Of a stretch of 21,311 nucleotides of DNA, positions 4,612 to 20,133 are shown in pieces. This DNA is from a virus. The stretch is taken from the IMG/VR virus record IMGVR_UViG_3300020478_000082, positions 1 through 21,311 of that record; one strand, 5' to 3'. How positions within the stretch are numbered: position 1 is the first letter of the stretch; the number at the start of each line of letters is the position of its first letter. A program made the position numbers and the translations under genes. A model generated the notes under the pieces. It was not told the DNA's origin. It saw only the letters and a program-made list of their open reading frames with translations, and made no database searches.

Positions 4612-5204
4612 ATTGGAAAAATGTATTAAAAGCTGAATGGGATGCTAGTGATTCTACACAAGGATTACATGTTACTAAATTTTATATGTTTTTAAAGCGT
4701 TGGCTGGCAGAGGAGCATACTGAGAAATTTTTAGAATATTTCTGGTTATATGAAGACTTAGAATCATTTGAGAGAAGAGATGTTAAAAACTCTCTACAAG
4801 CTTTAATATCAGATACAGGTAGATGGGGACAACCATCAATGAAATATCCAGGTATAGAAATAATACACATGACTGATGATATGATAGCTCTTACTTTTGA
4901 TGATGATAAACATATTAAAGAAAGAGATGAATGGGTAAAACAGACTGAAGAATATAAAGTTCATGTAAAGAATACACGAGGTTATACTCCTTGGTGGGTT
5001 AAAAAGCCACCACACGATTCGGTAATTCAAAGAGCGTATAATAGATTAATGTCTATAATTAAGAAAAGTAAAAATAAAAAAACATTTACTCAAGCTCTTC
5101 GCCCTCCATCGAAGAAAAAGAAGAAGAAGTATGGAATGGGTGCAAAAAGATATACTGGCGGTTTGGGGAAAAGAAAATATAGTAAAGGAGGATATAGTAG
5201 ATGA
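4608..5204 (+). CDS. Unrecognised basic protein, minor head candidate
   Basis: I do not recognise this 198-residue protein. It starts with MNWKNVLKAEWD, much like the protein encoded at 6943 (MNWEKILLKA). The middle is mixed alpha/beta with several Trp residues (TPWWVKKPP). The last ~40 residues are extremely basic, with a run of six Lys followed by Gly/Tyr/Lys/Arg-rich sequence, suggesting nucleic-acid contact. Its ATG overlaps the portal stop by four bases (ATGA), and its own TGA overlaps the next ATG in the same way, so translation is probably coupled to the portal. By position it could be a minor capsid, ejection or portal-associated protein; that is inference. Confidence 0.8.
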   Translation: MNWKNVLKAEWDASDSTQGLHVTKFYMFLKRWLAEEHTEKFLEYFWLYEDLESFERRDVKNSLQALISDTGRWGQPSMKYPGIEIIHMTDDMIALTFDDDKHIKERDEWVKQTEEYKVHVKNTRGYTPWWVKKPPHDSVIQRAYNRLMSIIKKSKNKKTFTQALRPPSKKKKKKYGMGAKRYTGGLGKRKYSKGGYSR

Positions 5205-5419
5205 CAAAAACAGTAAAAGAGTTAGAAAAGGAATTAAAGATAGCAAGAAATGCTGAAAGAAATAGCGTTAAAATAACAAAGAATAAAAACTTTGATTATG
5301 TAGGGCCTGACCCAGACTCAGGCACAAAAGAAAGTCCGGCAAGTTCGGAAGTACCAGATTTTATTGGTAAGCCTAAAACTAAAACTAGTAAAAGGCTTCC
5401 TGATAGTTTACCCTATTAA
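5201..5419 (+). CDS. Small unrecognised charged protein
   Basis: This 72-residue protein has a short charged helix (KELEKELKIARNAERN) followed by a Pro/Ser/Lys-rich tail that is probably disordered. No domain is recognisable. A strong AAAGGAGG site sits before ATG 5201, and the start overlaps the preceding stop as ATGA. It belongs to the run of small proteins between portal and ligase and may be a structural or assembly accessory; nothing in the sequence decides this. Confidence 0.7.
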   Translation: MTKTVKELEKELKIARNAERNSVKITKNKNFDYVGPDPDSGTKESPASSEVPDFIGKPKTKTSKRLPDSLPY

Positions 5420-5428
5420 GGTGATTAA

Positions 5429-6946
5429 ATGGATTTTTTAGATGGATTACTTATAAGAGATACATCTCTTATATTAAAAGAAGATAGTCCGTCAGTACAA
5501 GATAAATTATTAGAAAAGGCTAAAGTGCATCAAAACAAACTTAGGCCATTTACAATGTCTGAAATAAAACAACATTTAGATAATGCAAAAGAAAATGTTA
5601 CTGGGAATATACAATTAAATAGAACAGAAGCACAACCAGATAAAGATGGCATTATGCCAACAACAACTACAGCAGGTGAAATATTAAAAATAAATGATGC
5701 AGTAATAATGTCTGCATTATGGCAAATAAAACCTCATCTAAATAAAGAATTATTTAATAAACTTCAAGAAATATTTAAACCTAGAAAAAAATCTAGTATT
5801 AAAATAAAAGGAATATCTACTGATGAGGAGAAAGTATTTGTTAGATTTTTAGATGCAATGGAAAGAGGCGACACGCTTTCTCCTACACTACAAAATGATA
5901 TGTTTGATTTTGGTTTATTAGATGTTAAGTTTTTATTGTTATTACAAGATGTAGGAACAAAAGGAGAGAGAAAACTTCATAATACTATTTATGATAGACT
6001 TGTAAAAATAGAATGGGAAAACAAACAAAAAAAAGTAGTACCGACAGAATTATTTGAAAGGTCTATGCAAAAATTAGAAGAGTTAAGTGGTATTTCTAGA
6101 CCAGATAAAAATTCAATTATAAGAGAATATAAATTACTAAGAGACCAAAAAAACTTATCTGTTGTTGATATAGCAAGGTTAGTTAATACTAAAAAATATA
6201 GGTTTCAAGGACAAACTACTAAAAAGCACTTATCTACAATAACAGATAAACTTAATGAATTATTAAATGATGAGTGGGATAATATATTAAATCTGTTTAT
6301 GAGGAATATAGAGATTTTAGATGAATCTACTAATGAATCTTTTACTGAAAAAAAATATGGAACTCAAAATTTAGATGATGAGTTAGTAGCAGAATGGAAT
6401 AGTTTAAAAGATAATAAAAATAATAAAACTAGTTATGAAGAAATTAGGGGGAAAAAATATAAATCTGCTATAAAGAAGTTAGAATTATCTTATAACCGAA
6501 TAAATAAATATTTTAAAGCAGCTAGAAGATTAACTCAATTATTAGAAGAAAATACCTTTGTTAGTGAAGATATAGATTATTCTTTAATAGAACAAGAAAA
6601 AGAATTTCATAATGATTATAAAAATATAAAAGATAACATAGAAGAATATGATAATTATGCTAAGCAAATAAAAGACCAAGAGAAGGCTGCATTACAAAGA
6701 CAAAAAGAATGGGAAGCCAAGAAAAAAGAAGCTCAAACAACAGATGTAAGAACTGAAAAGATTCCTATTAAAGATAATAAACAGGTTCAACATCAAAGTA
6801 AAGCTAATAAATTATCAGAAGAAGAAAAAAAACTTCAAATGCACCGCTCAACTAAAGAGAAATCAATAGATGAGTGGTTAAGCAGAATGGGAGTTCAAAA
6901 AGATAAATTAAAAGAAATATTAGAAGAAAGGAGGAAAAAAGAATGA
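5429..6946 (+). CDS. Large helical/coiled-coil unrecognised protein
   Basis: This 505-residue protein is rich in Lys, Glu, Asn and Asp, is largely helical, and I do not recognise it. Residues about 80-360 look like a compact helical domain. From about 380 to the end it is charged coiled-coil-like (KEKSIDEWLSRMGVQKDK and then a Glu/Lys/Arg-rich end). A short stretch near residue 439, DVRTEKIP, resembles the portal C-terminus (DTRTERRIP). ATG 5429 has GGTGA seven bases upstream. The stop overlaps the next gene's ATG. A long helical protein between portal and capsid genes could be an internal (ejected) head protein or a minor capsid protein; this is inference from position. Confidence 0.8.
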   Translation: MDFLDGLLIRDTSLILKEDSPSVQDKLLEKAKVHQNKLRPFTMSEIKQHLDNAKENVTGNIQLNRTEAQPDKDGIMPTTTTAGEILKINDAVIMSALWQIKPHLNKELFNKLQEIFKPRKKSSIKIKGISTDEEKVFVRFLDAMERGDTLSPTLQNDMFDFGLLDVKFLLLLQDVGTKGERKLHNTIYDRLVKIEWENKQKKVVPTELFERSMQKLEELSGISRPDKNSIIREYKLLRDQKNLSVVDIARLVNTKKYRFQGQTTKKHLSTITDKLNELLNDEWDNILNLFMRNIEILDESTNESFTEKKYGTQNLDDELVAEWNSLKDNKNNKTSYEEIRGKKYKSAIKKLELSYNRINKYFKAARRLTQLLEENTFVSEDIDYSLIEQEKEFHNDYKNIKDNIEEYDNYAKQIKDQEKAALQRQKEWEAKKKEAQTTDVRTEKIPIKDNKQVQHQSKANKLSEEEKKLQMHRSTKEKSIDEWLSRMGVQKDKLKEILEERRKKE

Positions 6947-7287
6947 ATTGGGAAAAAATATTATTAAAAGCACATAGCCCTATGTTAGATAAAGCTAGTC
7001 CAAAACAGAAAAAGAAAGTAAAAAAGATATTACAATCTACTCAACCATCTGAATATATGGGACAAGATTTTACTAAATTAGGAGATTTATTAGATGAATT
7101 AAATTCCTTAGATGTAAATAAATCTAAAGCTATGCAAAAGAAAATGGAACTTATGGAAGAAACAAATACTGATTTAGTTGCAAGAGCAGCAGAATTAAGA
7201 AAAGACTATGAAACTCTATACCGTCAATTAAGAGGGATGGTATATCCAAAAAGTAAAGGGGATTTAGGAGAGGAAAAAGATGAGTGA
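6943..7287 (+). CDS. Small helical protein with MNW start motif
   Basis: A 114-residue helical protein that I do not recognise. It starts MNWEKILLKAHSP, matching the start of the protein at 4608, and continues with Lys-rich, coiled-coil-like helices (LVARAAELRKDYETLYRQL). The start is well supported: AAAGGAGG (6927-6934) lies eight bases before ATG 6943, which overlaps the previous stop as ATGA. The stop overlaps the next gene by eight bases. Likely a minor structural or assembly factor by context only. Confidence 0.75.
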   Translation: MNWEKILLKAHSPMLDKASPKQKKKVKKILQSTQPSEYMGQDFTKLGDLLDELNSLDVNKSKAMQKKMELMEETNTDLVARAAELRKDYETLYRQLRGMVYPKSKGDLGEEKDE

Positions 7288-7525
7288 AGAAAGCACAGAG
7301 AATGAAATGTTACTATTGTTAAAAACATTAGTAAATAAAGTAAATGAATTGGAGAAAGCAGTTTATGATAAAGATAATCTATTAATGAAATCAGGTTATG
7401 TTGTTGTTGAAACTCCTTCTCCAATTATTTCTGTTTCTGAAACAGGAACAGATGTAGATGCTATCGCTAAGATGGATTGGGATGATATCGGTAAAATGAT
7501 GAATAAATTAGAAGGTGGTTATTAA
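7280..7525 (+). CDS. Small coiled-coil protein sharing the scaffold C-terminus
   Basis: An 81-residue protein with an N-terminal coiled coil (MLLLLKTLVNKVNELEKAV), a short extended linker (VVVETPSP) and a C-terminal motif KMDWDDIGKMMNKLEGGY. Linker and motif parallel the last ~50 residues of the protease/scaffold protein, which reads helix, KSQTVEIPEVD, then EMSWNDIHSFVSKYEE. In HK97-type phages the scaffold tail can contact the capsid protein, so this small protein may bind the inside of the procapsid or compete with or extend the scaffold; that is inference. It starts inside the previous gene with GGAGAGG upstream, and its TAA shares a base with the next ATG. Confidence 0.75.
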   Translation: MSEESTENEMLLLLKTLVNKVNELEKAVYDKDNLLMKSGYVVVETPSPIISVSETGTDVDAIAKMDWDDIGKMMNKLEGGY

Positions 7526-7740
7526 TGCCAGAAAAAGTGACAAAAGAAGAAAAGATAGCAGAGTTAATGTTAAAAGCAACAAAAGAAGCCGTTGAAATAC
7601 TTGGTAATAAGGATGATTTCAATGAAGAAGATTTAACTGGTGAAGATGTTAAATTAAGTAAACCTAAAGCAACTAAAGTTCCTGATGCTAAAGGTAGTGA
7701 TGAAGAAAAGACTAAGATTAGAGATGAGATTGAGGGATAG
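7525..7740 (+). CDS. Small acidic/lysine-rich unrecognised protein
   Basis: A 71-residue charged protein: one helix (KIAELMLKATKEAVEILG) followed by a hydrophilic, probably disordered tail. No family is recognised. Its ATG shares a base with the previous stop (TAATG), indicating translational coupling, and its stop is two bases before the ligase ATG. It is the last of the small genes between portal and ligase. Confidence 0.65.
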   Translation: MPEKVTKEEKIAELMLKATKEAVEILGNKDDFNEEDLTGEDVKLSKPKATKVPDAKGSDEEKTKIRDEIEG

Positions 7741-7742
7741 TT

Positions 7743-10256
7743 ATGCCGCTTTCTGGTGTCTTTGATAAGAAAAAGGATTCGCTTGCAAAGCGAGTGCTTA
7801 ACTTTTATGAAGATGTTAGATTTAATTATTTATCTGCAAGAGAAGACCCTAAAGCATACCGTAAAAATTGGCAAAATTCTATAGAAAAAATTAGAGAAGA
7901 TTTTGACGGCTTAAATGATTTTTCTAGAGAATTAAAGAAATATTTAAATGAAAAATTAGTGTTTGAAAAAGAAGTATTAAATCCTGAATCAGTACAAGCT
8001 AAAGAATTATTTGATGAAATTAAAGAATTGCGCTTTAATTCTAAAGAATTAAATGACCCGTTTGCTAAACAATTAGGAGATAAAGTAATAGAAAATCTAA
8101 TTGCAAAGCCCTCTATATATGCTATGTTTATACACTATGCATTACGCGCACACCCGCATTGCATTAAAGAAGAATCATGGGTGAAAAATGATAGGATGCC
8201 CGACACTATTACTGAGGGGGCTATGGGCTTAGACTTAGCAGTGTCAGATATTCCTTTGTATATCATAGAACATTATGGAGATGATTCTACAGAAAACAAA
8301 AGAATTAAATCTAAATTTAAATCAGCATTAGAAATACTAAAAGATGTTTATTTAGTAGACAATACTATAGAAAATTGGAAAGAATTAATAGAAATAGATT
8401 TAAAGAAAAGTAGTGAAGAAAAAGCAGAAATAGATTTTATAATTCCTAACAAACCCATGTATAGAATATTTGAAATAAATGATATTAAAGAATTAAAAGG
8501 ATTTAGTGGTGAATGGGTTGTTCAGGAGAAGTTTGATGGGATTAGAATTCAAATTCATAAGCAAGATTCCAATATAAAAATATACACTTATAATAAAAAG
8601 GATATAACTGATAAGTGTAAAAAGATTGTTGATAGATTAAAGGCTAAACAGTTTGGTGATGTAATTTTAGATGCTGAACTAATATTATATGATAATGATG
8701 AACCTTTACATAGAGCAGACACAATTGCTCATTTGTTTAAAAATAAATATAATGATGCAGAATTAAAGGCTAGAGTATTTGACATTATGCATCATGAAGA
8801 TAAAAGCGTTTCTGATGACCCCTTAAGAGAAAGAATTAATATATTATTTTATCAATTTGCTCAAAATTCTTCTGATGAATTATCATTCCCTAATAAGAAA
8901 AACACTAGAATGGCCGATTCATTAGAAGAAGTCAAAAAATATGGTAAAGAGATAATGGAATCTAGAACTGCTGAAGGGGTAGTTATCAAAGATATAGAAT
9001 CAACTTATTATATAGGAACTAAGAAAAATCCTAAATGGATTAAGTGGAAAAAATTTGTAGATTTAGATGTTATTGTCTTAGATAAAAAGAAAACTAAATC
9101 TAACTTGTATTCTTATTCTGTTGGAATTGGCCCACTTACAGGAGAAGAAGCCAGAGAACATGATGGAACAGAACATGAAGGAAAGACCTATCTAAAGGTT
9201 GGTAAAGCATTAAACACTAAAGAAAATGTAGAAATAGGTTCTATTATTAGAGTTAAAGTAGATGAAGTAAAACGAAAAGGTAAAGGCTATAGTTTATTTT
9301 CTGCTAAAGTTATTGAAATACCAGAAGTAGAAGCTCCTGAAAAATTAATCACATTAGAATTATTATCAAAAGATAGTAAGAAATCATTGGCTTATGATGT
9401 TCAAGATGCTTTATTAAAGTACACTATAACAGATGGCATACATGGTGAGGCAGAAATTATTTTAAAAGGAGACTATGAAGGCTTTACTATTTTTGGTTTT
9501 GATGGAGACCCACTAATGGAAAAGAATGCTTTATCAGATATAGATGATTGGAAAGACCAATTAACAGAAATAAATAAAACAAAGTCTTCTGAAGCTAGGG
9601 GAGCAATCAAAGAATTTTTGAAAGAGAAAGACCCCAAAGAAGAAGGAGTGCCTCTTTCTGATATATATGAATTTGTAAAGACCCATTCAAAACTTAAAAC
9701 ATATTTAAATGATTTATGGACTAATCAACCAAGAAGATTAAAAAATTGGATGAATGACCAAGATGAATTTGTTGCGTTAGATGGGCAAAAATATACATTT
9801 AATTCAAATCATATTTCAAAGAAAAAAGAAACTTCAAATGTAGGCACATTTAAATTAGTAGAAGCGGAAGATGATAATATCAATTTAATTATAAATATTA
9901 ATGATAAACAGATGGGATGGAATATTGATATAGAAGATACAGAAGACATTTTTAATTTGTTTGGGAAAGCTGGTAAATTTCCAGCCCAAGTAGCAAAGAA
10001 AACAATACAGAAGAAACTATTAGATAAAGGTAAAATTGAACTAGGTGTTCAAAAACATGGTTATCATGAATATAGAATAGATGGGGATAAGTTTGATACT
10101 AGATTACATTTTAGAGTAGTTCCTGTAAATGAACAAGATAAATGGTTAGTTTGGACAGGATACAAACAAGAGATGTTAGATAAGAAGGAAGATAAAGGTA
10201 TATGGGATATAACAGAGGATAGGTTTAAAAATTTAACCATGCAAATCCGTGAATAA
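7743..10256 (+). CDS. ATP-dependent DNA ligase with extra N- and C-terminal domains
   Basis: A ligase seals nicks in DNA through a covalent lysine-AMP intermediate. At 837 residues it is much longer than typical archaeal ligases (~550-600). All nucleotidyltransferase motifs are visible: I EKFDGIR with Lys263, III DAE (Glu312), IIIa VFDI (Phe346), IV EGVVIK (411-416) and V WIKWK (432-436), followed by an OB-fold region to about 545. Residues 1-230 do not resemble the usual ligase DNA-binding domain to me. The last ~290 residues include QKHGYHEYRI and FDTRLHFRVV, recalling the LigD 3'-phosphoesterase motif (H...H-x-D-x-R), with His772, Asp785 and Arg787 but Lys where the second His would be. 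It sits among head genes, suggesting a packaged or late-acting enzyme (inference). Confidence 0.88.
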   Translation: MPLSGVFDKKKDSLAKRVLNFYEDVRFNYLSAREDPKAYRKNWQNSIEKIREDFDGLNDFSRELKKYLNEKLVFEKEVLNPESVQAKELFDEIKELRFNSKELNDPFAKQLGDKVIENLIAKPSIYAMFIHYALRAHPHCIKEESWVKNDRMPDTITEGAMGLDLAVSDIPLYIIEHYGDDSTENKRIKSKFKSALEILKDVYLVDNTIENWKELIEIDLKKSSEEKAEIDFIIPNKPMYRIFEINDIKELKGFSGEWVVQEKFDGIRIQIHKQDSNIKIYTYNKKDITDKCKKIVDRLKAKQFGDVILDAELILYDNDEPLHRADTIAHLFKNKYNDAELKARVFDIMHHEDKSVSDDPLRERINILFYQFAQNSSDELSFPNKKNTRMADSLEEVKKYGKEIMESRTAEGVVIKDIESTYYIGTKKNPKWIKWKKFVDLDVIVLDKKKTKSNLYSYSVGIGPLTGEEAREHDGTEHEGKTYLKVGKALNTKENVEIGSIIRVKVDEVKRKGKGYSLFSAKVIEIPEVEAPEKLITLELLSKDSKKSLAYDVQDALLKYTITDGIHGEAEIILKGDYEGFTIFGFDGDPLMEKNALSDIDDWKDQLTEINKTKSSEARGAIKEFLKEKDPKEEGVPLSDIYEFVKTHSKLKTYLNDLWTNQPRRLKNWMNDQDEFVALDGQKYTFNSNHISKKKETSNVGTFKLVEAEDDNINLIININDKQMGWNIDIEDTEDIFNLFGKAGKFPAQVAKKTIQKKLLDKGKIELGVQKHGYHEYRIDGDKFDTRLHFRVVPVNEQDKWLVWTGYKQEMLDKKEDKGIWDITEDRFKNLTMQIRE

Positions 10257-10292: not shown

Positions 10293-11501
10293 GTGTCGCA
10301 AGTCGCTATGCTACAAAGTGATTCAGATGGAACATTTGACATATTAAAATCAGATGAATTAGTTATAGGTGGATATGCTTCTATTGAAGTTGTAGATAAA
10401 CAAAATGATTTAATTACTTTAGATGCATTAGAGGACGCAGTTGTAAAATACATGCAAATAAAGAAATATAGAAATGTAATGTCAAACCATTCAAATGTTC
10501 AAGTCGGAGAAGTAATAGAACAATATCGAGACAAAAATGGAACACTACACAAAACAGCAGTAGATGATGTAGGCTTTTATGTTGTAATTAAATTAAGAGA
10601 TGACATAGAAAAAGCAAAAGAAATTTCAAGAGGGATTAGAAAAGGAACCCTTCGTTCATTTAGTATAGGTGGACAAGCATTATCAAAAAGAAAAAAGACC
10701 AATGAAACATTTGGCGAATATAATGAGATAAATAAATTAGAACTCCATGAAGTAACAATTTGTGAAAAAGGAATAAACCCAGAAGCAAAGTTTGACATAT
10801 TAAAGGAGGAGCGTGATACCATGAGTGAAAAATTGGAAAAGACGCTGGAGGAAATTAATGAGCTAATGAAGCAAGTTAATGACCTTCAGAAAGAAGAACC
10901 GGTAGAGGAGGAGAAAGCAGAGTATATGGATACTGATGAAGAATCATCAGCAGAAGGCGAAAAGCTTACTTCAGATACAGATACTCCGGTAGAAGAGGAA
11001 GATGAAGAGTTAACCCTCTCCAACTTCGATAGTGAGGCAAAAGGTAGGACTGGGCCAGAGGGCTTTGTAGAAGCAGGTTTAATCGGTGAGGAATCACAAG
11101 GAAAGAAACTGCCTCAAGCAGCTCAAGTTGGGCCATTATACAAAGAGTGGAAGAATGAAGAATTTTCCACTTTAGACCTATCTTCTGCCAATGTAGAAAA
11201 GGCGTATGAGGCTTTTAAGGCAGAACAGCTAGAAAAGATGGCATACGAATCCTTAAAGAAGCAGTTTGAGACTCGCTTCGTTGAGGAGACATCTGTAAGA
11301 AAGGCAGATGTTGCAAGGCGTGAGTATGACGCTAAGAATGAGGTTGAAACACTAAGAGAGGAGTTCGCTACCCTTAGAAAGAGCCTAGAAGACAGGAATG
11401 ATGCAATTGTTAAGTCACAGACAGTTGAAATCCCAGAAGTAGATGTTTCTGAGATGAGCTGGAATGACATTCATAGCTTTGTTTCAAAATATGAGGAGTG
11501 A
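10293..11501 (+). CDS. Prohead protease fused to scaffold domain
   Basis: This is an HK97-type (S78-like) maturation protease that cleaves scaffold and capsid proteins inside the procapsid. Residues 1-165 are the protease: GGYASIEVVDKQND near the start, catalytic His66 in MSNHSN, and Ser124 in RSFSIGG, ending at LHEVTICEKGINPEA. Residues from 177 to 402 form an acidic, coiled-coil scaffold ending SEMSWNDIHSFVSKYEE. GTG 10293 is preceded by GAGGAAGTGGGA; the alternative is ATG 10308, which loses five residues. The gene lies directly before the capsid gene, as usual. Codon use changes at residue 177 from AAA/AGA-rich to AAG/CGY-rich, matching an internal start listed separately. Confidence 0.92.
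   Translation: MSQVAMLQSDSDGTFDILKSDELVIGGYASIEVVDKQNDLITLDALEDAVVKYMQIKKYRNVMSNHSNVQVGEVIEQYRDKNGTLHKTAVDDVGFYVVIKLRDDIEKAKEISRGIRKGTLRSFSIGGQALSKRKKTNETFGEYNEINKLELHEVTICEKGINPEAKFDILKEERDTMSEKLEKTLEEINELMKQVNDLQKEEPVEEEKAEYMDTDEESSAEGEKLTSDTDTPVEEEDEELTLSNFDSEAKGRTGPEGFVEAGLIGEESQGKKLPQAAQVGPLYKEWKNEEFSTLDLSSANVEKAYEAFKAEQLEKMAYESLKKQFETRFVEETSVRKADVARREYDAKNEVETLREEFATLRKSLEDRNDAIVKSQTVEIPEVDVSEMSWNDIHSFVSKYEE
10805..10809 (+). promoter_or_regulatory. Internal GGAGG ribosome binding site for scaffold
   Basis: A GGAGG core, within AAAGGAGGA, lies inside the protease reading frame 11 bases before the in-frame ATG 10821. It is among the strongest Shine-Dalgarno matches in the window. It falls exactly at the boundary between the protease fold and the coiled-coil scaffold. 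Confidence 0.6.
10821..11501 (+). CDS. Nested in-frame scaffold protein (internal start)
   Basis: ATG 10821 is in frame with the protease gene (residue 177) and is preceded by AAAGGAGGAGCGTGATACC, with GGAGG 11 bases before the ATG. The product would be 226 residues: MSEKLEKTLEEINELMKQ coiled coil, an acidic linker, a Gln/Ala region, a second long coiled coil (about 300-370 in parent numbering) and the C-terminal EMSWNDIHSFV motif. Lambda Nu3 inside gene C is the classic precedent for a scaffold made from an internal start of the protease gene. Codon preference shifts at this point to that of the neighbouring capsid gene, as expected if this part is translated much more than the protease. Internal initiation is inferred. 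Confidence 0.6.
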   Translation: MSEKLEKTLEEINELMKQVNDLQKEEPVEEEKAEYMDTDEESSAEGEKLTSDTDTPVEEEDEELTLSNFDSEAKGRTGPEGFVEAGLIGEESQGKKLPQAAQVGPLYKEWKNEEFSTLDLSSANVEKAYEAFKAEQLEKMAYESLKKQFETRFVEETSVRKADVARREYDAKNEVETLREEFATLRKSLEDRNDAIVKSQTVEIPEVDVSEMSWNDIHSFVSKYEE

Positions 11502-11506
11502 AAAGA

Positions 11507-12895
11507 ATGGCATATAACTATGTAAAAAGTATGAAAGATTTAGAAGCCGCAACCTACGGAGTTAGGGGCGGAGCAGGTGGTAATACCATGCTTAAGAGCG
11601 CAGGTATTGTTGCTGGTTTGCATACAGGTCATGGTGGTACAGAAACACCACAAGGAACTGTTGCAGGTGGCTTATCAAGCCTTTACAATTTAGTATATGG
11701 AAAGAAAGTTTGGTCAATGCTAAACCAAGAAGTTAACGCATTGGCTATGCTCGCAAAGAGGCCTTATACCTCTAGCGGGTGGAGAATAATGACAGATAGG
11801 CCTGAAGGTGGTTCAGCCTCTACATTTGCAGTATCTGGTGCTAATGCTGGTACTGGTGCAAATGCTCAAGGTGGAGCTACTCCAAGAGTGGACAAGATTG
11901 GTGGTGTTGTTGAGAATGCAAGGTTAGGAACAGAAATTCCTGCTATTGCTCCACAATACACTACTCTCTATACAAGCCCTAAAACTATTGCTCATATGTT
12001 TGAGTTCTCAGAACTTGCCCTTGAAATGGCTAAGATTGATGATGGTGTTGGTGACTTAAGAGCCTTAATCCGTGAGGATATGGGTAAGCACCATGCTGAA
12101 GCACAAAACAAGATGCTATTAATGCCTCTTGAAAACTATGATTTAACAGAGAATGGAAGCGATGGTGGAACAACAGTTAATGTTACTGCTAATTACACAT
12201 CGTTAATGAAGGTTGTTGCTTCTTCACAAGAATTAGAAGCAATGGTGGATGCATCTATGACTGATGATTCAGCATCAACAACAGATGGTTTGGTTGCCCA
12301 ATTAGTAACTCTATATGGAAACACAGACCGACAGTTAGTAAGCAACGCATACAATGAATCCTTTATGGATGCACAGGTGGATTACGGTTCATCTTATGCT
12401 GCTGGAGATGCTAGACCATTAACCCTAACTATTCTAAATAGTATGCTAAGGCAATTAAGAGAGAACGGCGGTAGCCCAAAGGTTATCTTAACTGGATATG
12501 ATACCATTCAGCACATTGGTGACCTATTACAGAGCCAAGAAAGGTTCTTAGACCGAAAGGAAATTATCCCTACCCATAATGGTGTTAGGGGTGTAAAGGG
12601 AGCAGAGGTTGGTTTCCGTGTAGCAACCTACTATGATATACCCTTAATTCCTTGTAAGGATATGCCTAAGACCGGATTAGGTTCTAATAAATTGAGTGAC
12701 CTGTTAATCTTAGATACTGACCACATTTGGCTTTCTGTAATGAAACCAACCCAATACTTTGAGGATGGAATTGACAATGGAAACCCATTTGGTGTTGGAA
12801 CACTAGGTAATCAGGCAATGTATAGAACCATTGCTGAAACTGGTTGTTCTTTCTTTAAGGGACAAGGTAAGATAACAAACATAACAAGTGCATGA
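11507..12895 (+). CDS. Major capsid protein (HK97-fold type)
   Basis: A 463-residue protein immediately downstream of protease/scaffold. Features consistent with an HK97-fold capsid protein: a Gly-rich N-terminal arm (GVRGGAGGNTMLKSAG) likely removed or rearranged at maturation, a central long helix region (DLRALIREDMGKHHAEAQNK), an A-domain-like segment (SPKVILTGYDTIQHIGDLLQ) and a C-terminal part with LILDTDHIWLSV. I see no obvious fold-independent motif, so the call rests on position, size and overall pattern. Codons are distinctly GC-richer (AAG, GAG, GGT, GTT) than most of the window, as expected for the most abundant virion protein. I chose ATG 11507 with GAGGAGTGA upstream over the in-frame GTG 11498, which overlaps that site. 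Confidence 0.88.
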   Translation: MAYNYVKSMKDLEAATYGVRGGAGGNTMLKSAGIVAGLHTGHGGTETPQGTVAGGLSSLYNLVYGKKVWSMLNQEVNALAMLAKRPYTSSGWRIMTDRPEGGSASTFAVSGANAGTGANAQGGATPRVDKIGGVVENARLGTEIPAIAPQYTTLYTSPKTIAHMFEFSELALEMAKIDDGVGDLRALIREDMGKHHAEAQNKMLLMPLENYDLTENGSDGGTTVNVTANYTSLMKVVASSQELEAMVDASMTDDSASTTDGLVAQLVTLYGNTDRQLVSNAYNESFMDAQVDYGSSYAAGDARPLTLTILNSMLRQLRENGGSPKVILTGYDTIQHIGDLLQSQERFLDRKEIIPTHNGVRGVKGAEVGFRVATYYDIPLIPCKDMPKTGLGSNKLSDLLILDTDHIWLSVMKPTQYFEDGIDNGNPFGVGTLGNQAMYRTIAETGCSFFKGQGKITNITSA

Positions 12896-14213: not shown

Positions 14214-14630
14214 ATGCCAGCTTTAGAGAAAGACACAAAACTTGTAATGACGATATTATTCGTCGGAGCAATTTGTGGCGTAAATGTTTTCTTTTACGCC
14301 GAGTTTGGTCATCTATTGGCTTTTAATCATTATTCACATGCGGTAGTTTTTGCTTTAATGACTATCGGTGGAATATTAGTGATGAAAGCAATATTTGACT
14401 TAATATTAAATGATTATATAGAAATGGCTTTGCTAGACAGAAGAATATCTGCATACTGGCACAAGCGTGGAAAAGACGAGCAACAAAGAGAAAGAGTTAG
14501 ACAAAGTTTACAACAGCATAATCAAACTTGGGGTAATTTAACACCCCAACAAAACTTTGCTGGAAATCAACCAATTGTGGTTGAAAACACTGAACCTAAG
14601 CCTTCTTTCTTGGCTCAAATTGAACAGTAA
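14214..14630 (+). CDS. Two-helix membrane protein
   Basis: A 138-residue protein with two clear membrane segments, about residues 10-29 (LVMTILFVGAICGVNVFFYA) and 42-65 (HAVVFALMTIGGILVMKAIF), then a charged, Gln-rich soluble tail (RRISAYWHKRGKDEQQRERV). With a short loop between helices, both ends would face the same side, and the basic region after TM2 suggests the cytoplasm. GGTGA precedes ATG 14214. It starts a cassette of two membrane proteins and a small GTPase. Possible jobs are membrane anchor, entry pore or holin-like exit protein; none is proven. The gene contains an 8-bp perfect inverted repeat at 14277-14300. Confidence 0.8.
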   Translation: MPALEKDTKLVMTILFVGAICGVNVFFYAEFGHLLAFNHYSHAVVFALMTIGGILVMKAIFDLILNDYIEMALLDRRISAYWHKRGKDEQQRERVRQSLQQHNQTWGNLTPQQNFAGNQPIVVENTEPKPSFLAQIEQ

Positions 14631-14638
14631 GTGAGAAC

Positions 14639-14857
14639 ATGTTGGATGCAATAGCATTTGGAATGGATGAAACTGCTTTAGCATACGATATGCAAAGAGC
14701 ACATTCAGCAGATGTTTGGTTTTTACGAGCTAGGTTTTATTTTTGGGGTATTATTGGATGTTTAACAAGTTTTGCTCTAGGCCAATTTATGGCTTTAGCA
14801 GGAATAAATATATTAGGAGAATTATGGGAGGGCTTTTGGGCATTAATATATCATTAA
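14639..14857 (+). CDS. Small membrane protein
   Basis: A 72-residue protein with an amphipathic N-terminal region (MLDAIAFGMDETALAYDMQR), one clear hydrophobic span at about 31-58 (FYFWGIIGCLTSFALGQFMA) and an aromatic end (LWEGFWALIYH). It lies eight bases after the preceding membrane-protein gene and 13 bases before the GTPase gene, so the three are probably made together. A second ATG at 14663 would remove eight residues. The weak GTGA site lies five bases before ATG 14639. Not recognised as a known holin. Confidence 0.72.
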   Translation: MLDAIAFGMDETALAYDMQRAHSADVWFLRARFYFWGIIGCLTSFALGQFMALAGINILGELWEGFWALIYH

Positions 14858-14870
14858 GGAGGTATATATT

Positions 14871-15539
14871 ATGTCTGTAATGACCGGATTTGTAATTCTT
14901 TGTATTGAAAAAATAGGAATATTGTGGAAAAAAATAAACCCTCACCCGTTTGGAGTATATGGAGCAACTCAAGTAGGAAAAACTACATTACATCATCAAC
15001 TAAGAACTAGAGGCGAAGTGCCAGAAATTAAAGAAAGAACAGTTGGTAGAGAAAGAGCATTAAGAAAAACAATAAAAATTGATGGAGATACACATACTAT
15101 AAGAACTTCAGATGTTGGTGGAGAAAACTTATATTGGGGTGAATGGCTACAAGACATGAAATCAAGAAAGGTAAAATATATTATTTTTATGATAGACGAC
15201 AGACATTTATCTAAACACATTGATATTGAACAACAATTATGTTGGAAGTTTTTAGTAGATGCAATTTGTTCACCTTATTGGGATATGATTAATAAAAGAA
15301 AAAAGAAACACAAACATGATTATCCAATAGCATTAGGAATTTGGGCAAATAAATTTGATTTGTGGAAAGACAGATATTCATATAATGACATTCAAAAACA
15401 TCCAATATTTGATTCATTTCAAGACGGAATTCAAAGATTAAATGATAAAGGAATACCAACTCATAAATATATAGTAAGTGCAAAATCAGATGCTGAAATG
15501 GTATATAGAGGAATCACAACAATGATAGAGGACTATTAA
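14871..15539 (+). CDS. Arf/Ras-like small GTPase
   Basis: A 222-residue protein with all five GTPase motifs in order: G1 GATQVGKTT (31-39), candidate G2 Thr57 in ERTVG, G3 DVGGE (81-85), G4 NKFD (160-163) and G5 SAK (203-205). DVGG is the form found in Arf/Sar/SR-beta-type GTPases; the residue after it is Glu rather than the usual catalytic Gln, so hydrolysis may be slow or need a partner. The N-terminus (MSVMTGFVILCIEKIGILW) is hydrophobic or amphipathic and could be a membrane helix, as in Arf. The gene has the best Shine-Dalgarno in this region, AAGGAGGT (14856-14863), and follows two membrane-protein genes. Role in the virus unknown; membrane-linked entry, assembly or egress is inferred. 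Confidence 0.85.
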   Translation: MSVMTGFVILCIEKIGILWKKINPHPFGVYGATQVGKTTLHHQLRTRGEVPEIKERTVGRERALRKTIKIDGDTHTIRTSDVGGENLYWGEWLQDMKSRKVKYIIFMIDDRHLSKHIDIEQQLCWKFLVDAICSPYWDMINKRKKKHKHDYPIALGIWANKFDLWKDRYSYNDIQKHPIFDSFQDGIQRLNDKGIPTHKYIVSAKSDAEMVYRGITTMIEDY

Positions 15540-15598
15540 TGATAACAGATAATTGTTCAATGTCGCTATATTGTAAATGTAAGGAGTGTAAAAAATGA
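15539..15598 (+). CDS. Possible 19-residue Cys-rich mini-protein
   Basis: A 19-codon frame exactly bridges two genes: its ATG shares a base with the GTPase stop (TAATG), and its TGA overlaps the next gene's ATG (ATGA). The peptide, MITDNCSMSLYCKCKECKK, has four cysteines, three of them in CKCKEC, which could bind one zinc ion. This double overlap copies the coupling used by clear genes elsewhere in the window. Against it: it is very short, has no Shine-Dalgarno of its own beyond coupling, and contains the AAGGAG site of the following gene. Confidence 0.3.
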   Translation: MITDNCSMSLYCKCKECKK

Positions 15599-16272
15599 GT
15601 ATGAATTATCAACCCCCGTCTTTAATTGGTGCAACAAATGCAACTGTAGCAAATGCCTTTTTGCCACCATTAAAATATGCTAGAGCAGCAGGGTCTATAA
15701 TGACCTATGAATATAAAAGTGATAAACCAAAGAAACAATTAAAAGAATTAGTTAAAGTTCTTTGGCCAGAAAGGAAAACTTTTTTAAAGATTCCTTTAGG
15801 ATATAAATTCAATACTAGAGACAGATGTGTTGTTTGTGGGACTCATAAGGTTTGGGAAGCATCCGACCCAATGAGACCAACAATACCACTTCATAAAGTT
15901 AGAAAAGGTTATCCAATGAGAGGAACTTATTGTGATAAACATGCTCAAATACACAAACAATATGAGATGTTAGAACAACAAATTATAGCTGATGAACATG
16001 GGTTATCCTTTAGTGCATATGTTCCTAAGCCTAAAGTGCCTAAAATGTTGCAATCAGCACCGCTAACTTCATTAAGGCAATCCGATATCGAGAGTTTGGC
16101 TGCAACCGGATGGACAATAAAACCCCCTGAAATGAGCGTAGAATCAGCCGAAGATGAATTATTTAGATTAACAATGGAAAGCCATTCAATTAATACAAGG
16201 ATATTAAAATTAATGACAGATGGAACTCAAGTTAAACAAGCTAAACAAATAATAGAAGAGGAGAATGAATAA
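15595..16272 (+). CDS. Zinc-binding unrecognised protein
   Basis: A 225-residue protein with a likely zinc site formed by Cys78-x2-Cys81 (RCVVCG) and Cys113-x2-His116 (YCDKHA). The first 60 residues are Pro/Ala-rich (YQPPSLIGATNATVANAFLP); after the zinc region there is a Pro/Lys linker and a helical, acidic C-terminus (QAKQIIEEENE). AAGGAG (15580s) precedes ATG 15595; an alternative ATG two codons later is possible. It is downstream of the GTPase and upstream of a coiled-coil protein, with which it overlaps. I recognise no family; a virion or assembly role is inferred from the operon. Confidence 0.75.
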   Translation: MSMNYQPPSLIGATNATVANAFLPPLKYARAAGSIMTYEYKSDKPKKQLKELVKVLWPERKTFLKIPLGYKFNTRDRCVVCGTHKVWEASDPMRPTIPLHKVRKGYPMRGTYCDKHAQIHKQYEMLEQQIIADEHGLSFSAYVPKPKVPKMLQSAPLTSLRQSDIESLAATGWTIKPPEMSVESAEDELFRLTMESHSINTRILKLMTDGTQVKQAKQIIEEENE

Positions 16273-16273
16273 T

Positions 16274-16996
16274 ATGGGAGTTTTTGGAACAAGTAATTCA
16301 AGTATTTCACAGCAAATAGAAGCTCAAGGAGCAGCTAATTTTAAAGCAACAAATAACTTATTAACACTACAAACAAATCATGTAGAAGAATTTTTTGAGT
16401 ATCATGGAGAAGGATTTTTATATGCTCTAGAAAAAATGCTTGAAGATATGACAGAAAGAGTAGTAAGTAGAATGTTATCTAAATTAAGATTTACACAAGG
16501 AGCTAGTGGAGAATTAGTAGTTCACTCTGATTGCTTAAGAGAATATGAAACAATAACACAAGAAAACATTCAATTAGATGTACAGGCAATTTTAGCAGCA
16601 GCAATCAATACTGAAGTTGTTATGCAAAGAAAGATGGCTAAACAACAGTATTTAGAAACTCAAGGTTTTAGTGTTAGTGCTCCTCAAGGACAAACTTCTA
16701 CTCCTTCAGTAAACTATAATACTTCTGGTGGAACCCCTAATCCTGGAGGATTAAACCCTTCACAGATTAGCGGTGGTAATCCAATGGTTCAAGCTAATAA
16801 TATGATGATGCAACAACAACAGGCTTTTAACAATCCTTCTGGTTATCCAATACAACCAGCAGGCTATGATAGCATGGGGAATGCTTATTGGATAGACCCA
16901 AATACAGGACAACCATCATACACCCCCCCTGGAAGTGGGCTAGGTTTAGCTAACATGATTTCTAAAGGGGCTGCATGGGCGGCTTGGTTAGCATGA
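16274..16996 (+). CDS. Helical protein with Gln/Pro/Gly-rich tail
   Basis: About 240 residues. Residues 1-130 are helical (EFFEYHGEGFLYALEKMLED, then ERVVSRMLSKLRF), and 130-220 are low-complexity Gln/Asn/Pro/Gly/Ser including a Met/Gln run. The last 17 residues are hydrophobic (GLANMISKGAAWAAWLA) and could contact a membrane or bind a partner groove. Start choice: AGGAG (16259-16263) is one base before ATG 16265, too close, but ten bases before ATG 16274, so I prefer 16274; the longer form adds MNN. The function is not recognised. Confidence 0.72.
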   Translation: MGVFGTSNSSISQQIEAQGAANFKATNNLLTLQTNHVEEFFEYHGEGFLYALEKMLEDMTERVVSRMLSKLRFTQGASGELVVHSDCLREYETITQENIQLDVQAILAAAINTEVVMQRKMAKQQYLETQGFSVSAPQGQTSTPSVNYNTSGGTPNPGGLNPSQISGGNPMVQANNMMMQQQQAFNNPSGYPIQPAGYDSMGNAYWIDPNTGQPSYTPPGSGLGLANMISKGAAWAAWLA

Positions 16997-17005
16997 GTGA
17001 TTTAA

Positions 17006-18826
17006 ATGTCTATTATTATACCTGACGATATTCGGTATAATAGAAGAGATTACTCTATAGGCGATGCATTAGAACTTAATGATGGAATGATGGGTTCTCA
17101 ACCAGAACGCCATCCATTATTTAAGTTAATGCTAAAATATATTGCATCACCGTTTAGTGATAACAATTACGATGAAATTGAAGATAATTTATTATATTAT
17201 CTAGATAGTTCATTTGTAATGAGGTTGGCTGAGAGAGACTCAGATATAGTTATTCCTGATGAAGAAACCTATGAAAGACATATAAATTATGCTTGGGAAC
17301 AATTACAAAGGCTTAGTACAGAACAGTTACTTAACCACCTAATGAATTATGTAGGGGATACAAAACAATTAAAACTTGCTTTAACACAAGGTCTTTTAGA
17401 TGAAGGAAAAAATACTTTAATACAAGATATTAATACTAAAATTGGCACAGACCATTTACTATCTGCTCATACTAAAGGTATAGAAAGTAAAAAAATATTT
17501 CAAGCCGCAGATAAAGGCGCAAAATATGAACCTGCATTAGATATAATTAATGATATTTTAACTGGTGAAGATGGAACACAAAACAAATACATGAAAATAA
17601 TGTTTGCAGATGGAGGTAAATTAGGTATTAAAACTAAAGTAAAACTACCACATGGTAAATCAATTGGGTTAGGTTTAACAGAAATAACTATTGATATAGA
17701 TTTTGAAGAACTGTTTAATACTTTATTTGAAAACGCTGGAATCCAACCTGTTAAAACTTCAATAGGATTTTCTTCAAGACAAAAAGAGTTTACAAAATCA
17801 TTTAACAAATATAAACCACATCCTGATTTTCCTTTAAACGAAGAAGATGAAGAAATAATTAGACATATTCAACTTAAACAAGAATGGAACCAGCTTCATA
17901 CAGAAGGTGAATTTAAAGATGAAGAATATGAAGGTTCATTAGAAGCAGAAGAAATCAAAGAAGAAATTAAAAGAGGAAGAATGAAAGACACTATGGATGT
18001 TGCAACAGATTTATTAGATGCTGGATTAATTACTTTTGAAAAATTTAAAAAGTTAGAAGATGAAGGAGAGGTTTTTCCTAAACTTCCCTATAAAGAACAT
18101 GAAATTAATTTAATTAGTGATATTGTTGACTGGAAAAAGAAAAACCTTGATGGAACAGGCCCTAACGAATTTGAATTAGAAGTTTATAGAAAGGAATCAG
18201 TAAAAGCTAAAAAAGAGGTTATGAGAGAATTTAATACTAGAGTATATCCTGTTATACATGGGCCTAAATATGGCCCATATGCCGATAGACAATTATTCTT
18301 AGACGATACTTGGAAAGAGTTTTTAGATGACGATAATAAAAACCCAATTATTAAACTAGATTTAAAAAATGCAGCAAGACATTCTAGAAAATTATATGAT
18401 GCATTAAATCAAGACGCATTAATTCCAAAAGAAGTAGGCATACTACAATTAAATATAATATCTTATATGCAATCCGAAGAAGAAATAGAAGACAGAAAAG
18501 AATTATTAAATGATGAAGATGAAGAAGTTAGAGCTAATTCAAAATTTTTATTAGATAAAATATTTAATGTATTTAAATTAGTTGGTGTTAATTATTCAGT
18601 AAAACAGCGTTATGATTTTAGAGATTGGACTGAAAGAAAACCAGAAAGAGGTAATAGACCAATGGAAGAACAAAAACCTAAATTTGGTAAACCAGGAAAA
18701 AGTTTAGGATTAACAGGTATGTCTGAAGCTGGAGGACAACCAACAAATGTTAGTGTTAAAACAAACACATTATTATATTATATTAAAAGGCAAATAGCAA
18801 ATTTACAGGGGGCATTAAATGGGTAA
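17006..18826 (+). CDS. Large acidic unrecognised protein
   Basis: A 606-residue acidic, mainly helical protein with no family I recognise. Visible regions: an N-terminal helical part (EQLLNHLMNYVGDTKQLKLA), a hydrophobic/beta patch near 205-245 (KTKVKLPHGKSIGLGLTEIT), a long Glu/Lys region about 270-345, a middle domain with VIHGPKYGPYADRQLFLDD and a Gly/Pro/Lys linker before a last helix (LLYYIKRQIANLQGALNG). It lies before the probable adaptor gene and overlaps it by eight bases. Size and place could fit a minor capsid, neck or internal protein, or a portal-associated protein. It is unlikely to be a tape measure because it precedes the tail-tube candidate. Confidence 0.75.
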   Translation: MSIIIPDDIRYNRRDYSIGDALELNDGMMGSQPERHPLFKLMLKYIASPFSDNNYDEIEDNLLYYLDSSFVMRLAERDSDIVIPDEETYERHINYAWEQLQRLSTEQLLNHLMNYVGDTKQLKLALTQGLLDEGKNTLIQDINTKIGTDHLLSAHTKGIESKKIFQAADKGAKYEPALDIINDILTGEDGTQNKYMKIMFADGGKLGIKTKVKLPHGKSIGLGLTEITIDIDFEELFNTLFENAGIQPVKTSIGFSSRQKEFTKSFNKYKPHPDFPLNEEDEEIIRHIQLKQEWNQLHTEGEFKDEEYEGSLEAEEIKEEIKRGRMKDTMDVATDLLDAGLITFEKFKKLEDEGEVFPKLPYKEHEINLISDIVDWKKKNLDGTGPNEFELEVYRKESVKAKKEVMREFNTRVYPVIHGPKYGPYADRQLFLDDTWKEFLDDDNKNPIIKLDLKNAARHSRKLYDALNQDALIPKEVGILQLNIISYMQSEEEIEDRKELLNDEDEEVRANSKFLLDKIFNVFKLVGVNYSVKQRYDFRDWTERKPERGNRPMEEQKPKFGKPGKSLGLTGMSEAGGQPTNVSVKTNTLLYYIKRQIANLQGALNG

Positions 18827-19916
18827 ACTAGGTTCAAAGAGTGATTTTATAGTAGGTTCTGAGTCTAATTATAGTCTAGGTATTGGTTATTATACTAGAC
18901 ATTTTGAAGTTTCTGAACTATTACAGTGTGGAGAATTTACAGATAGTACAACTCCTAGTAGGGGAGCAGTAGGCAATATTATTAAAAGAGTAGAAGGAAA
19001 AATTGATGATAAATTAAAAGTATCATTTAGACCTGAAATTATTGAAAAAGAAGTTCATGATTTTGACCCGTTTTTGATGGGGGCTTATCCTGTTACTCCC
19101 GCTAAAGATTATGTAGGGTTTATTCAACTTAATAGTGAAAAGGTTCGTAAAATACTTAGATTAGAAGTATGGCAAGGCAATGAATATGTAGATATGGCTT
19201 CTGCTTCTTGTATTTATACTCCTCCTACAACAGCACAAACAGGAACATATACTCTAAGATTTGATATTGGTAGTCCTGTTACTGTTTCTTTTACATTAAC
19301 AGAAAACACTGCTAATGGTTTTTATGACCAATTCGGACAGAAAACAACAGTATTAGAGATTTGTGCTGCAATTAATGAACACTATCCATCACATACTGCA
19401 CAGTTTACACAACAAAACACTCAAAAGACCACTGCTGCATCCACCGGCGCAGGAAATATCTCTGATTTTTTCTATGCCTGTCCAACCGAAGATGGTAAAT
19501 CAGTTTACATTTCTTCTAAACTTCCATCAGATGCTGGAACAATTTGTAGTTTAATTGAAACATTAGGTTCAGATACAACAACTTATTCATTTACTGATAA
19601 TGAAACAGGTGGAAGAACAGAAGAATTTTGGTCTCTCAAAGATGAGGGTAAGATATTTTTCAGAACAAACTATCCACATCACAATAAACACTCAATAAGA
19701 GTGGCTTATATTAGAGGAAGTAGTAGAATACCCTCTTCAATCCATGAAGCGACTACAAAGCTAGTTGCGGCAGAAGTATTAGTAACAGATGATAATACTA
19801 TATTGATTGCAGAAACCGGTTCTAATATAGATGTTGCTAAAAAGCATGAAATTCTTACTACTGAAGCAAAAGAAATTTTAGACGGTAAACGAAACCTAGT
19901 ATATTTAATTGAGTAA
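18819..19916 (+). CDS. Probable head-tail adaptor/neck protein
   Basis: A 365-residue protein. The C-terminal ~70 residues (SSIHEATTKLVAAEVLVTDD, ending KHEILTTEAKEILDGK) resemble the helical pattern of gp6/gp15-type head-tail adaptors, in which a Pro-x-x-(I/V)-x-x-A helix is followed by a charged helix. The N-terminal 120 residues look beta-rich. The middle (about 130-250) is Thr/Ser/Gly-rich beta, as in inserted virion domains. Gene order (before two small genes and the tail-tube candidate) fits the neck. ATG 18819 lies within the end of the preceding gene, with CAGGGGG upstream. The adaptor call is inference from pattern and order. Confidence 0.55.
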   Translation: MGKLGSKSDFIVGSESNYSLGIGYYTRHFEVSELLQCGEFTDSTTPSRGAVGNIIKRVEGKIDDKLKVSFRPEIIEKEVHDFDPFLMGAYPVTPAKDYVGFIQLNSEKVRKILRLEVWQGNEYVDMASASCIYTPPTTAQTGTYTLRFDIGSPVTVSFTLTENTANGFYDQFGQKTTVLEICAAINEHYPSHTAQFTQQNTQKTTAASTGAGNISDFFYACPTEDGKSVYISSKLPSDAGTICSLIETLGSDTTTYSFTDNETGGRTEEFWSLKDEGKIFFRTNYPHHNKHSIRVAYIRGSSRIPSSIHEATTKLVAAEVLVTDDNTILIAETGSNIDVAKKHEILTTEAKEILDGKRNLVYLIE

Positions 19917-19917
19917 T

Positions 19918-20133
19918 ATGAATGAACTAACACAACTTTTAAATCGCATTCACCCTAATTATAAAGAAATTGCTAATAAATGGCAAGATAGACAAAAAAT
20001 AGAAGAAGAACTTGGTATTCCTACTTCAGATTCTTTAACAGAACAGTTTATTACAGAAGAAGTAATTGACGGAATAGCTAAAGCACACCTTAACGATATA
20101 GATAACATGATAGGTGAGTTAGTTGGTAGATGA
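19918..20133 (+). CDS. Small helical neck-region protein
   Basis: A 71-residue all-helical, acidic protein (MNELTQLLNRIHPNYKEIAN, ending HLNDIDNMIGELVGR). I chose ATG 19918, one base after the preceding stop; the upstream in-frame TTG at 19909 lies inside the previous gene and has no Shine-Dalgarno. Initiation is probably by re-initiation after the adaptor gene. The TGA overlaps the next gene, which starts at TTG 20123. Position fits a head-closure or neck accessory protein; no family is recognised. Confidence 0.65.
   Translation: MNELTQLLNRIHPNYKEIANKWQDRQKIEEELGIPTSDSLTEQFITEEVIDGIAKAHLNDIDNMIGELVGR
20113..20117 (+). promoter_or_regulatory. GGTGA ribosome binding site for a TTG start
   Basis: GGTGA lies five bases before TTG 20123, inside the end of the preceding gene. 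The ATG at 20130 is in another frame. This site supports TTG as initiation codon. Confidence 0.55.

Follow-up and report, generated by a model that had tools for sequence, protein, structure and literature searches.

The DNA analysed here (the window) is a stretch of 21,311 nucleotides from an IMG/VR virus record, with a G+C content of 32.5%. It encodes the terminase large subunit, the portal, a prohead protease of S78 type and a capsid protein of SU10/HK97 type, which bears out the structural operon that the initial annotation had described around a gene for a complete, Arf-like small GTPase; the two membrane-protein genes that it had placed immediately upstream of the GTPase gene are also there (Table 1).

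Table 1. Features of the window discussed in the text; positions are nucleotides of the window or, where marked, residues of the GTPase
Feature	Position	Strand	Description
Major capsid protein (SU10/HK97 type)	11498..12895	+	nearest named relatives Druskaviridae; synteny anchor
TM138, membrane protein	14214..14630	+	two hydrophobic segments (10-28, 43-61), basic tail, variable linker, C-terminal FL
TM72, small membrane protein	14639..14857	+	one hydrophobic segment (38-56) by hydropathy
Small GTPase gene, 222 aa	14871..15539	+	start ATG, stop TAA; Ras-superfamily
GTPase, N-terminal helix	residues 2-22		predicted; amphipathic-type
GTPase, G1	residues 31-38
GTPase, switch I	residues 57-59		Thr57-x-Gly59
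GTPase, G3	residues 81-85		DxGG[E/Q]
GTPase, G4	residues 160-163		NKxD
GTPase, G5	residues 203-205		SAK
g225, soluble protein	15595..16272	+	CxxC...CxxH
g243	16265..16996	+	conserved N-terminal part, Gln/Pro/Asn-rich linker, strongly conserved Trp-containing C-terminus
g365	18819..19916	+	conserved, downstream of the block; shared with the four sister-clade loci read, none of which has the block

All five G motifs can be read in the product as described (G31ATQVGKT38, Thr57, D81VGGE85, N160KFD163 and S203AK205). A first scan for homologues gave 64 loci, and the window protein was aligned with genes from 32 of these (33 rows); a larger set of 220 loci gave 112 distinct complete GTPase genes. 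Across all 112, residues G31, G36, K37, T38, T57, G59, D81, G83, G84, N160, K161, D163, S203, A204 and K205 are invariant, and 71 positions of the alignment are at least 98% conserved. The Shine-Dalgarno sequence of the gene, AAGGAGGT, is the longest anti-Shine-Dalgarno match of the 25 starts checked, in line with its having been called the strongest nearby. The N-terminal helix is also predicted, with low confidence (block mean pLDDT of 48 and 55), and would be moderately amphipathic, its helix moment lying at a median of the 90th percentile against its own shuffles.

The Glu that follows DVGG in the window copy, in place of the usual Gln, is the commoner state in the family, with E at residue 85 in 74 of the 112 homologues and Q in the other 38. 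On a GTPase tree of 56 rows this alternation needs five parsimony changes, at least two of them forced by supported branches, so both residues appear to be accepted at the catalytic place. Ras with the Q61E substitution retains hydrolysis. A catalytically dead or decayed variant due to Glu85 was rejected because E and Q interchange on the tree.

Taken alone, the window protein scored under the Pfam cut-offs for Ras (E 0.00089), SRPRB (0.0014) and MMR_HSR1 (0.0021), and against curated cut-offs it reached 22.0 bits for small_GTP (cut-off 42.5) and 19.3 for Ras (cut-off 21.6). At E <= 0.1, and far more often than chance would allow, all 33 family members matched small_GTP of NCBIfam (E 2.2e-6 at best) and MMR_HSR1 of Pfam (1.3e-4 at best), and other Pfam models were matched by 30 (Roc), 28 (Ras), 26 (SRPRB) and 8 (Arf) of them. 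When whole records were searched, MMR_HSR1 was found in only 3 of 14 despite its matching every member in direct protein scans, which reflects the sensitivity limit of that search; the same limit applies to the lack of a Pfam Arf match in the whole-record search of the window record. Among PDB sequences the best matches were Ras proteins (KRas, E 0.096, for the window protein), with Arl10C close behind in a profile search.

An AlphaFold model made from the 33 rows (pLDDT 69.7, pTM 0.72) has its strands and helices in the order found in Ras. Foldseek placed Ras first (E 3.9e-7). VIA-align put Arf/Arl proteins on top, with Arl6 (2h57) at Z 15.8 (rmsd 2.8, 161 aligned), Arf6 at 15.2 (2.9, 158), a Lokiarchaeal RagA-like protein at 14.9 (3.6, 169), the Asgard GerdArfR1 (8oum) at 14.4 (3.1, 161) and Rab5 at 13.2 (3.5, 158), where Z differences within 1 are ties. 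As pLDDT falls below 50 in stretches of the P-loop and switch I (36-39 and 45-59), this fine ranking should not be over-read, and the lack of a Ras entry among the 50 VIA-align matches listed excludes nothing. All of those 50 are GTPases, or complexes or fusions with one.

Placement in a non-GTPase P-loop family was an outcome that the initial annotation had set against its own reading, and it did not come about. Such a protein, for example a kinase or an AAA-type ATPase whose GTPase motifs are coincidental, could account for the scores of the window protein under the curated cut-offs and for weak matches to ATPase_2 in 11 of the 33 members and to AAA models in up to five. However, the guanine-reading NKxD motif and SAK are invariant, small_GTP is matched by every member and a GTPase is contained in every structural match listed. 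This identity is therefore highly improbable and was rejected on the invariant motifs and the structural matches. The product is, judging from its motifs and profile matches, a true, divergent small GTPase of the Ras superfamily with a subfamily of its own, for which GTP binding and hydrolysis are predicted.

With Arf, Arl and Sar proteins, including Asgard ArfR, the viral family shares the highest VIA-align Z (14-16), DxGG at G3, TxG in switch I, a predicted helix ahead of the P-loop and, in its Gln-bearing copies, the catalytic residue. Unlike them, it has the Glu-bearing majority, a long interswitch, Ser or Thr at position 2 in 110 of 112 homologues and a poor fit to the Pfam Arf model. The marks of Arf/Arl proteins are a P-loop Asp, a Trp before the G3 Asp and an N-[VI] motif, Arl6 and Sar being among the exceptions to the last two (Neuwald 2010, PMC3012027, in the part of the paper available). 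None of the 112 homologues carries any of them: the P-loop position holds Ser (60), Thr (48), Gly (3) or Glu (1), no Trp precedes the G3 Asp, and the Asn of N-[VI] occurs in two with neither Val nor Ile next to it. The spacing from the switch I Thr to the G3 Asp is 24 residues in all 112. In Ras it is 22 residues and in Arf1 it is 19. As all three marks are missing, this is a viral GTPase with Arf-like anatomy, yet not an Arf, and Arf membership was rejected. The earlier description as an Arf-like small GTPase thus holds for a complete, conserved small GTPase with Arf/Arl on top structurally, but not as a family name, and the best sequence matches lean to Ras.

The Ras/Rab group shares with the viral family an RK..IDG-T interswitch, the canonical G motifs and the best PDB sequence matches. 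Ras differs in having DTAGQ at G3, where the viral proteins have DxGG, and the viral proteins have a lysine-rich insertion past helix 3 (137-152). In MglA, Thr78 stands in place of the G3 Asp. No viral homologue has a Thr there, the Asp being present in all 112, and no Pfam match to a roadblock (MglB) partner was found at E <= 1 among the window proteins scanned (all but ORFs 4608-7740 and 19909-20133). MglA membership was rejected on these two results; the residue number Thr78 is from the available part of PMC3000849. Canonical G motifs are also common to the viral family and the prokaryotic Rup GTPases (Wuichet and Sogaard-Andersen 2014, PMC4316618, as far as the text was available).

The GTPase gene is at the centre of a block of five genes in the order TM138-TM72-GTPase-g225-g243. 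The initial annotation had proposed a survey for the same gene between capsid and neck genes in related genomes. A capsid-anchored search gave 80 contigs, of which 27 were too short and were dropped, and in all 53 with at least 4.5 kb downstream the five genes are present in identical order. Neighbouring genes are rarer on the same contigs (g148 in 15, g128 in 31 and g606 in 17). Anchoring on distinct GTPase genes with enough flank gave the capsid gene upstream at 78 of 78 loci, both membrane-protein genes at 91 of 91, which agrees with the membrane linkage proposed earlier, and g225 with g243 at 80 of 80.

In a 35-row alignment of TM138, F132 of the C-terminal FL motif is invariant and L133 nearly so. 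TM72 has a conserved N-terminal stretch consisting of G8, E11, A15-Y16-D17 and R20-A-H-S-A-D25. Basic residues flank the hydrophobic segments of both proteins, which suggests that those parts face the cytosol. C78, C81, C113 and H116 of g225 are invariant in 45 of 45 rows, so that g225 is probably zinc-binding, and it is a candidate regulator or effector of the GTPase. The window copy of g225 matched no Pfam family, and the protein had no PDB sequence match and no convincing fold match (best Z 2.9). In BFVD, an unnamed viral protein (A0A516LDA5) is 51% identical to g225 and is the only match at E <= 0.001, so UniProt already includes a virus related to this one.

The GTPase has the lowest median dN/dS of the five genes (0.178 over 1777 pairs), which indicates purifying selection, followed by g225 (0.213) and the other block genes (0.29-0.32). 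Over 73 loci, its protein distances correlate with those of g225 (r 0.85), TM138 (0.78) and the major capsid protein (0.72), each correlation being above all 500 permutations, as vertical co-inheritance predicts. A stray host gene or an assembly artefact was rejected, since the block is found on many contigs, is under purifying selection and has correlated distances.

A further scan started from a more distant capsid and counted loci with about 3 kb or more downstream, leaving out shorter flanks. All 13 loci with a capsid identity of at least 58% have the block, whole in 12 and as its first four genes in one (L228) whose contig ends early. None was found in 27 sister-clade loci (capsid identity 42-46%, at least 3 kb downstream) or in the seven halovirus loci examined. 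Searching whole records for the GTPase gave the same pattern: it was present in all seven block-bearing records and was found in none of seven sister records (three of 88-92 kb and four of 37-64 kb) or four halovirus records.

Four sister loci were read gene by gene. They have homologous protease, capsid and g365 genes, and where the block would be there are two or three small post-capsid genes (g117-like in three of the four), then a protein of 788-951 aa and the g365 homologue. Nothing resembling the block genes was found in them by blastp; one ORF (788 aa, in L252) fits a loose P-loop expression, and a few ORFs have a hydrophobic segment, none of them like the block genes by blastp. As these relatives have homologous protease, capsid and g365 genes but no block, the block is not generic in head-tail assembly.

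Two changes suffice for the three groups on a 74-row capsid tree, so gain or loss affected the block as a whole. Support for the sister clade is high (100/99). Monophyly of the GTPase-bearing group is weakly supported (33/32), at the point where the long sister and halovirus branches meet, so that one gain, or an older gain with one loss in the sister clade, would both fit. The initial annotation had also set absence from related genomes together with decay against its reading. The gene is kept and under selection, so decay did not come true, but it is indeed absent from the sister clade.

The best named matches of portal and capsid are HCTV and HVTV (Druskaviridae), at about 25-29% identity. 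Like this kinship of capsid and portal, the ATP-dependent DNA ligase encoded in the window is a trait in common with Magrovirales. PolB was found in 10 of 12 block-bearing records, and in nine of the ten as two separate matches; the 21 kb window record is outside this search. The ten GTPase-bearing records among which these nine fall are those of L012, L015, L029, L063, L203, L113, L122, L119, L022 and L045. Three further block-bearing records have one partial PolB match each and the split was not seen there, while four sister records (L255, L252, L270 and L257) have a single longer match. The GTPase block and the PolB split may therefore mark the same divide. The legend of a figure on Aoguangviridae gives PolB-NTD/CTD (PMC10768690), which we read as separate genes. 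Taken together, capsid, portal and the mostly split DNA polymerase suggest magrovirus-like tailed viruses, and hence Poseidoniales archaea as hosts, since magroviruses have been assigned to Poseidoniales (PMC12999244, PMC13108676, and the available part of PMC10160649). This assignment is by shared features, with the reference genomes ON649702 and OR863078 outside the comparison. Just three of 14 records had chaperonin, which was tried as a magrovirus marker.

The same virion gene cluster is on two contigs (L067 and L068; NZMJ01000101.1 and NZMJ01000024.1) of a metagenome-assembled genome of Maricaulis sp. IN14. These are probably misbinned viral contigs, and they were the only ones that the search of genome contigs gave.

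In function, the nearest known parallel is ArvA (OapA, HVO_3014) of Haloferax volcanii, of which the following is given in the part of the paper available (Mills et al. 2024, PMC10927574). ArvA is a small GTPase of fewer than 250 aa with an N-terminal amphipathic helix, annotated as PF01926 and nearest to PF00025 by HMM search, and its loss abolishes the formation of RNA-associated vesicles. Its operon also holds ArvB (OapB) and the Zn-ribbon protein ArvC (OapC), suggested by the authors to be possibly a GAP, and 1,666 homologues of ArvA were reported in 14 archaeal phyla. Compared by description, the viral block shares with it a small GTPase, a predicted N-terminal helix of possibly amphipathic type, a zinc-type neighbour, a predicted membrane role and, probably, an archaeal host. 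It differs in having two membrane proteins and g243, and in being virus-borne and part of a virion operon. OapC (PF09845) and OapB (PF09846) were not found over the cut-off in any of 12 virus records, and membership of the Arv operon was rejected as tested; one weak OapC match (E 0.00175) contains an internal stop and lies about 50 kb from the GTPase gene in its record (G005). By analogy, the viral GTPase would work like ArvA without being identified as an ArvA.

Small GTPases are also encoded by giant viruses of eukaryotes, among them proteins of the Ras, Rab and Ran types in BFVD. There, 31 structural matches to the viral GTPase were obtained at E <= 0.001, all of them named as eukaryotic giant viruses. 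Unlike the family described here, these have eukaryotic hosts, and they are only 9-20% identical to it; they would lie outside a capsid-linked block and were presumably acquired independently. No PHROG family matched the GTPase convincingly, tblastn against INPHARED, a search that may leave out near records, gave no match at E <= 1, and the single plasmid match (E 2) was not meaningful. A small GTPase thus appears as unusual in a prokaryotic virus as had been claimed, with none outside this family in the PHROG, INPHARED and BFVD searches. In the titles and abstract openings among the literature matches listed, there was no mention of a small GTPase in a magrovirus or in another virus of prokaryotes, although key magrovirus papers may mention one; the word 'GTPase' is absent from the main texts of PMC10160649 and PMC5332604.

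The initial annotation had proposed a GTP-driven, membrane-linked step in entry, assembly or exit. We tentatively favour exit, giving it somewhat less than an even chance: the module would act as a GTP switch, recruited to the membrane to remodel it late in infection for egress, similar to ArvA. When GTP-bound, the GTPase would be kept at the host membrane by its N-terminal helix together with the cytosolic parts of TM138 and TM72, and there it would concentrate the module and bend or open the membrane at a late stage of infection. Virions could then exit through the remodelled membrane, with or without vesicle formation. Hydrolysis of GTP, aided by Glu or Gln 85, would reset the switch, possibly under regulation by the zinc protein g225. 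Since the sister clade makes a related capsid and tail without the block, yet every locus examined in the block's own lineage has kept it, a lineage-specific late membrane step fits best. From its place, the block is probably co-transcribed with the virion genes. It is doubtful that these viruses go so far as to leave by GTPase-driven budding or vesicle release in place of holin-endolysin lysis, which would be the first such system in a prokaryotic virus.

A location between head and neck genes fits a function in the virion or in assembly equally well, and that the sister clade manages without the block counts against the egress reading too. The GTPase, TM138 and TM72 could be components of the virion or tail that work at the host membrane while the genome is delivered. 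This is unlikely, although the block sits between capsid and neck/tail genes with which it is probably expressed, and TM138 and g243 have conserved C-terminal motifs behind variable linkers, as docking tails would; similar capsid and g365 genes occur in the sister clade without the block, and we know of no GTP switch in any tail-ejection apparatus. Similar genes without the block in relatives, protease included, also make it distinctly improbable that the GTPase sets the timing of a membrane-associated step in building the capsid or neck, a role for which the head/neck location, the fixed gene order and the linker and conserved C-terminus of g243 could speak. Rather unlikely as well is manipulation of the host, in which the GTPase would mimic or compete with a host vesiculation or signalling GTPase and so suppress vesicle decoys, keep out superinfecting viruses or divert the membrane traffic of the host. 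A Ras-superfamily switch with membrane partners, and the spread of ArvA homologues across archaea, are what such a role would lead one to expect, but placement in a virion operon and strict retention with the capsid are, in our judgement, unusual for accessory takeover genes.

To our knowledge, little has been learned of how tailed viruses of archaea get through the host membrane and out again. The five genes form a small set with which the use of GTP-driven membrane remodelling by archaeal viruses can be tested. Within the virion operon of this marine lineage, a divergent small GTPase is both fixed and under selection, and its membrane partners are defined. This suggests that small GTPases also occur in viruses other than the giant viruses of eukaryotes. 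Ras/Arf-type small GTPases figure prominently in eukaryogenesis and in archaeal membrane biology.

Some other genes of the window are also worth recording. The ORF between terminase and portal (1555-2862) contains an AFIDSDGYI stretch, which we take to resemble the LAGLIDADG motif of homing endonucleases, and had no Pfam match of homing-endonuclease type. Similar sequence occurs in 33 of the 220 loci (loci of one contig unmerged); in HVTV-1, HNH endonuclease genes flank the terminase on both sides. The portal (2944-4611) has an inserted zinc-ribbon-like CxxC...CxxC around residues 79-100, with a weak Pfam zinc-ribbon match. An ATP-dependent DNA ligase of 837 aa (7743-10256; DNA_ligase_A_M, 102.4 bits) is encoded within the head gene cluster, an unusual place for a replication enzyme, and was detected by tblastn in 181 of the 220 loci, again with loci of one contig unmerged.
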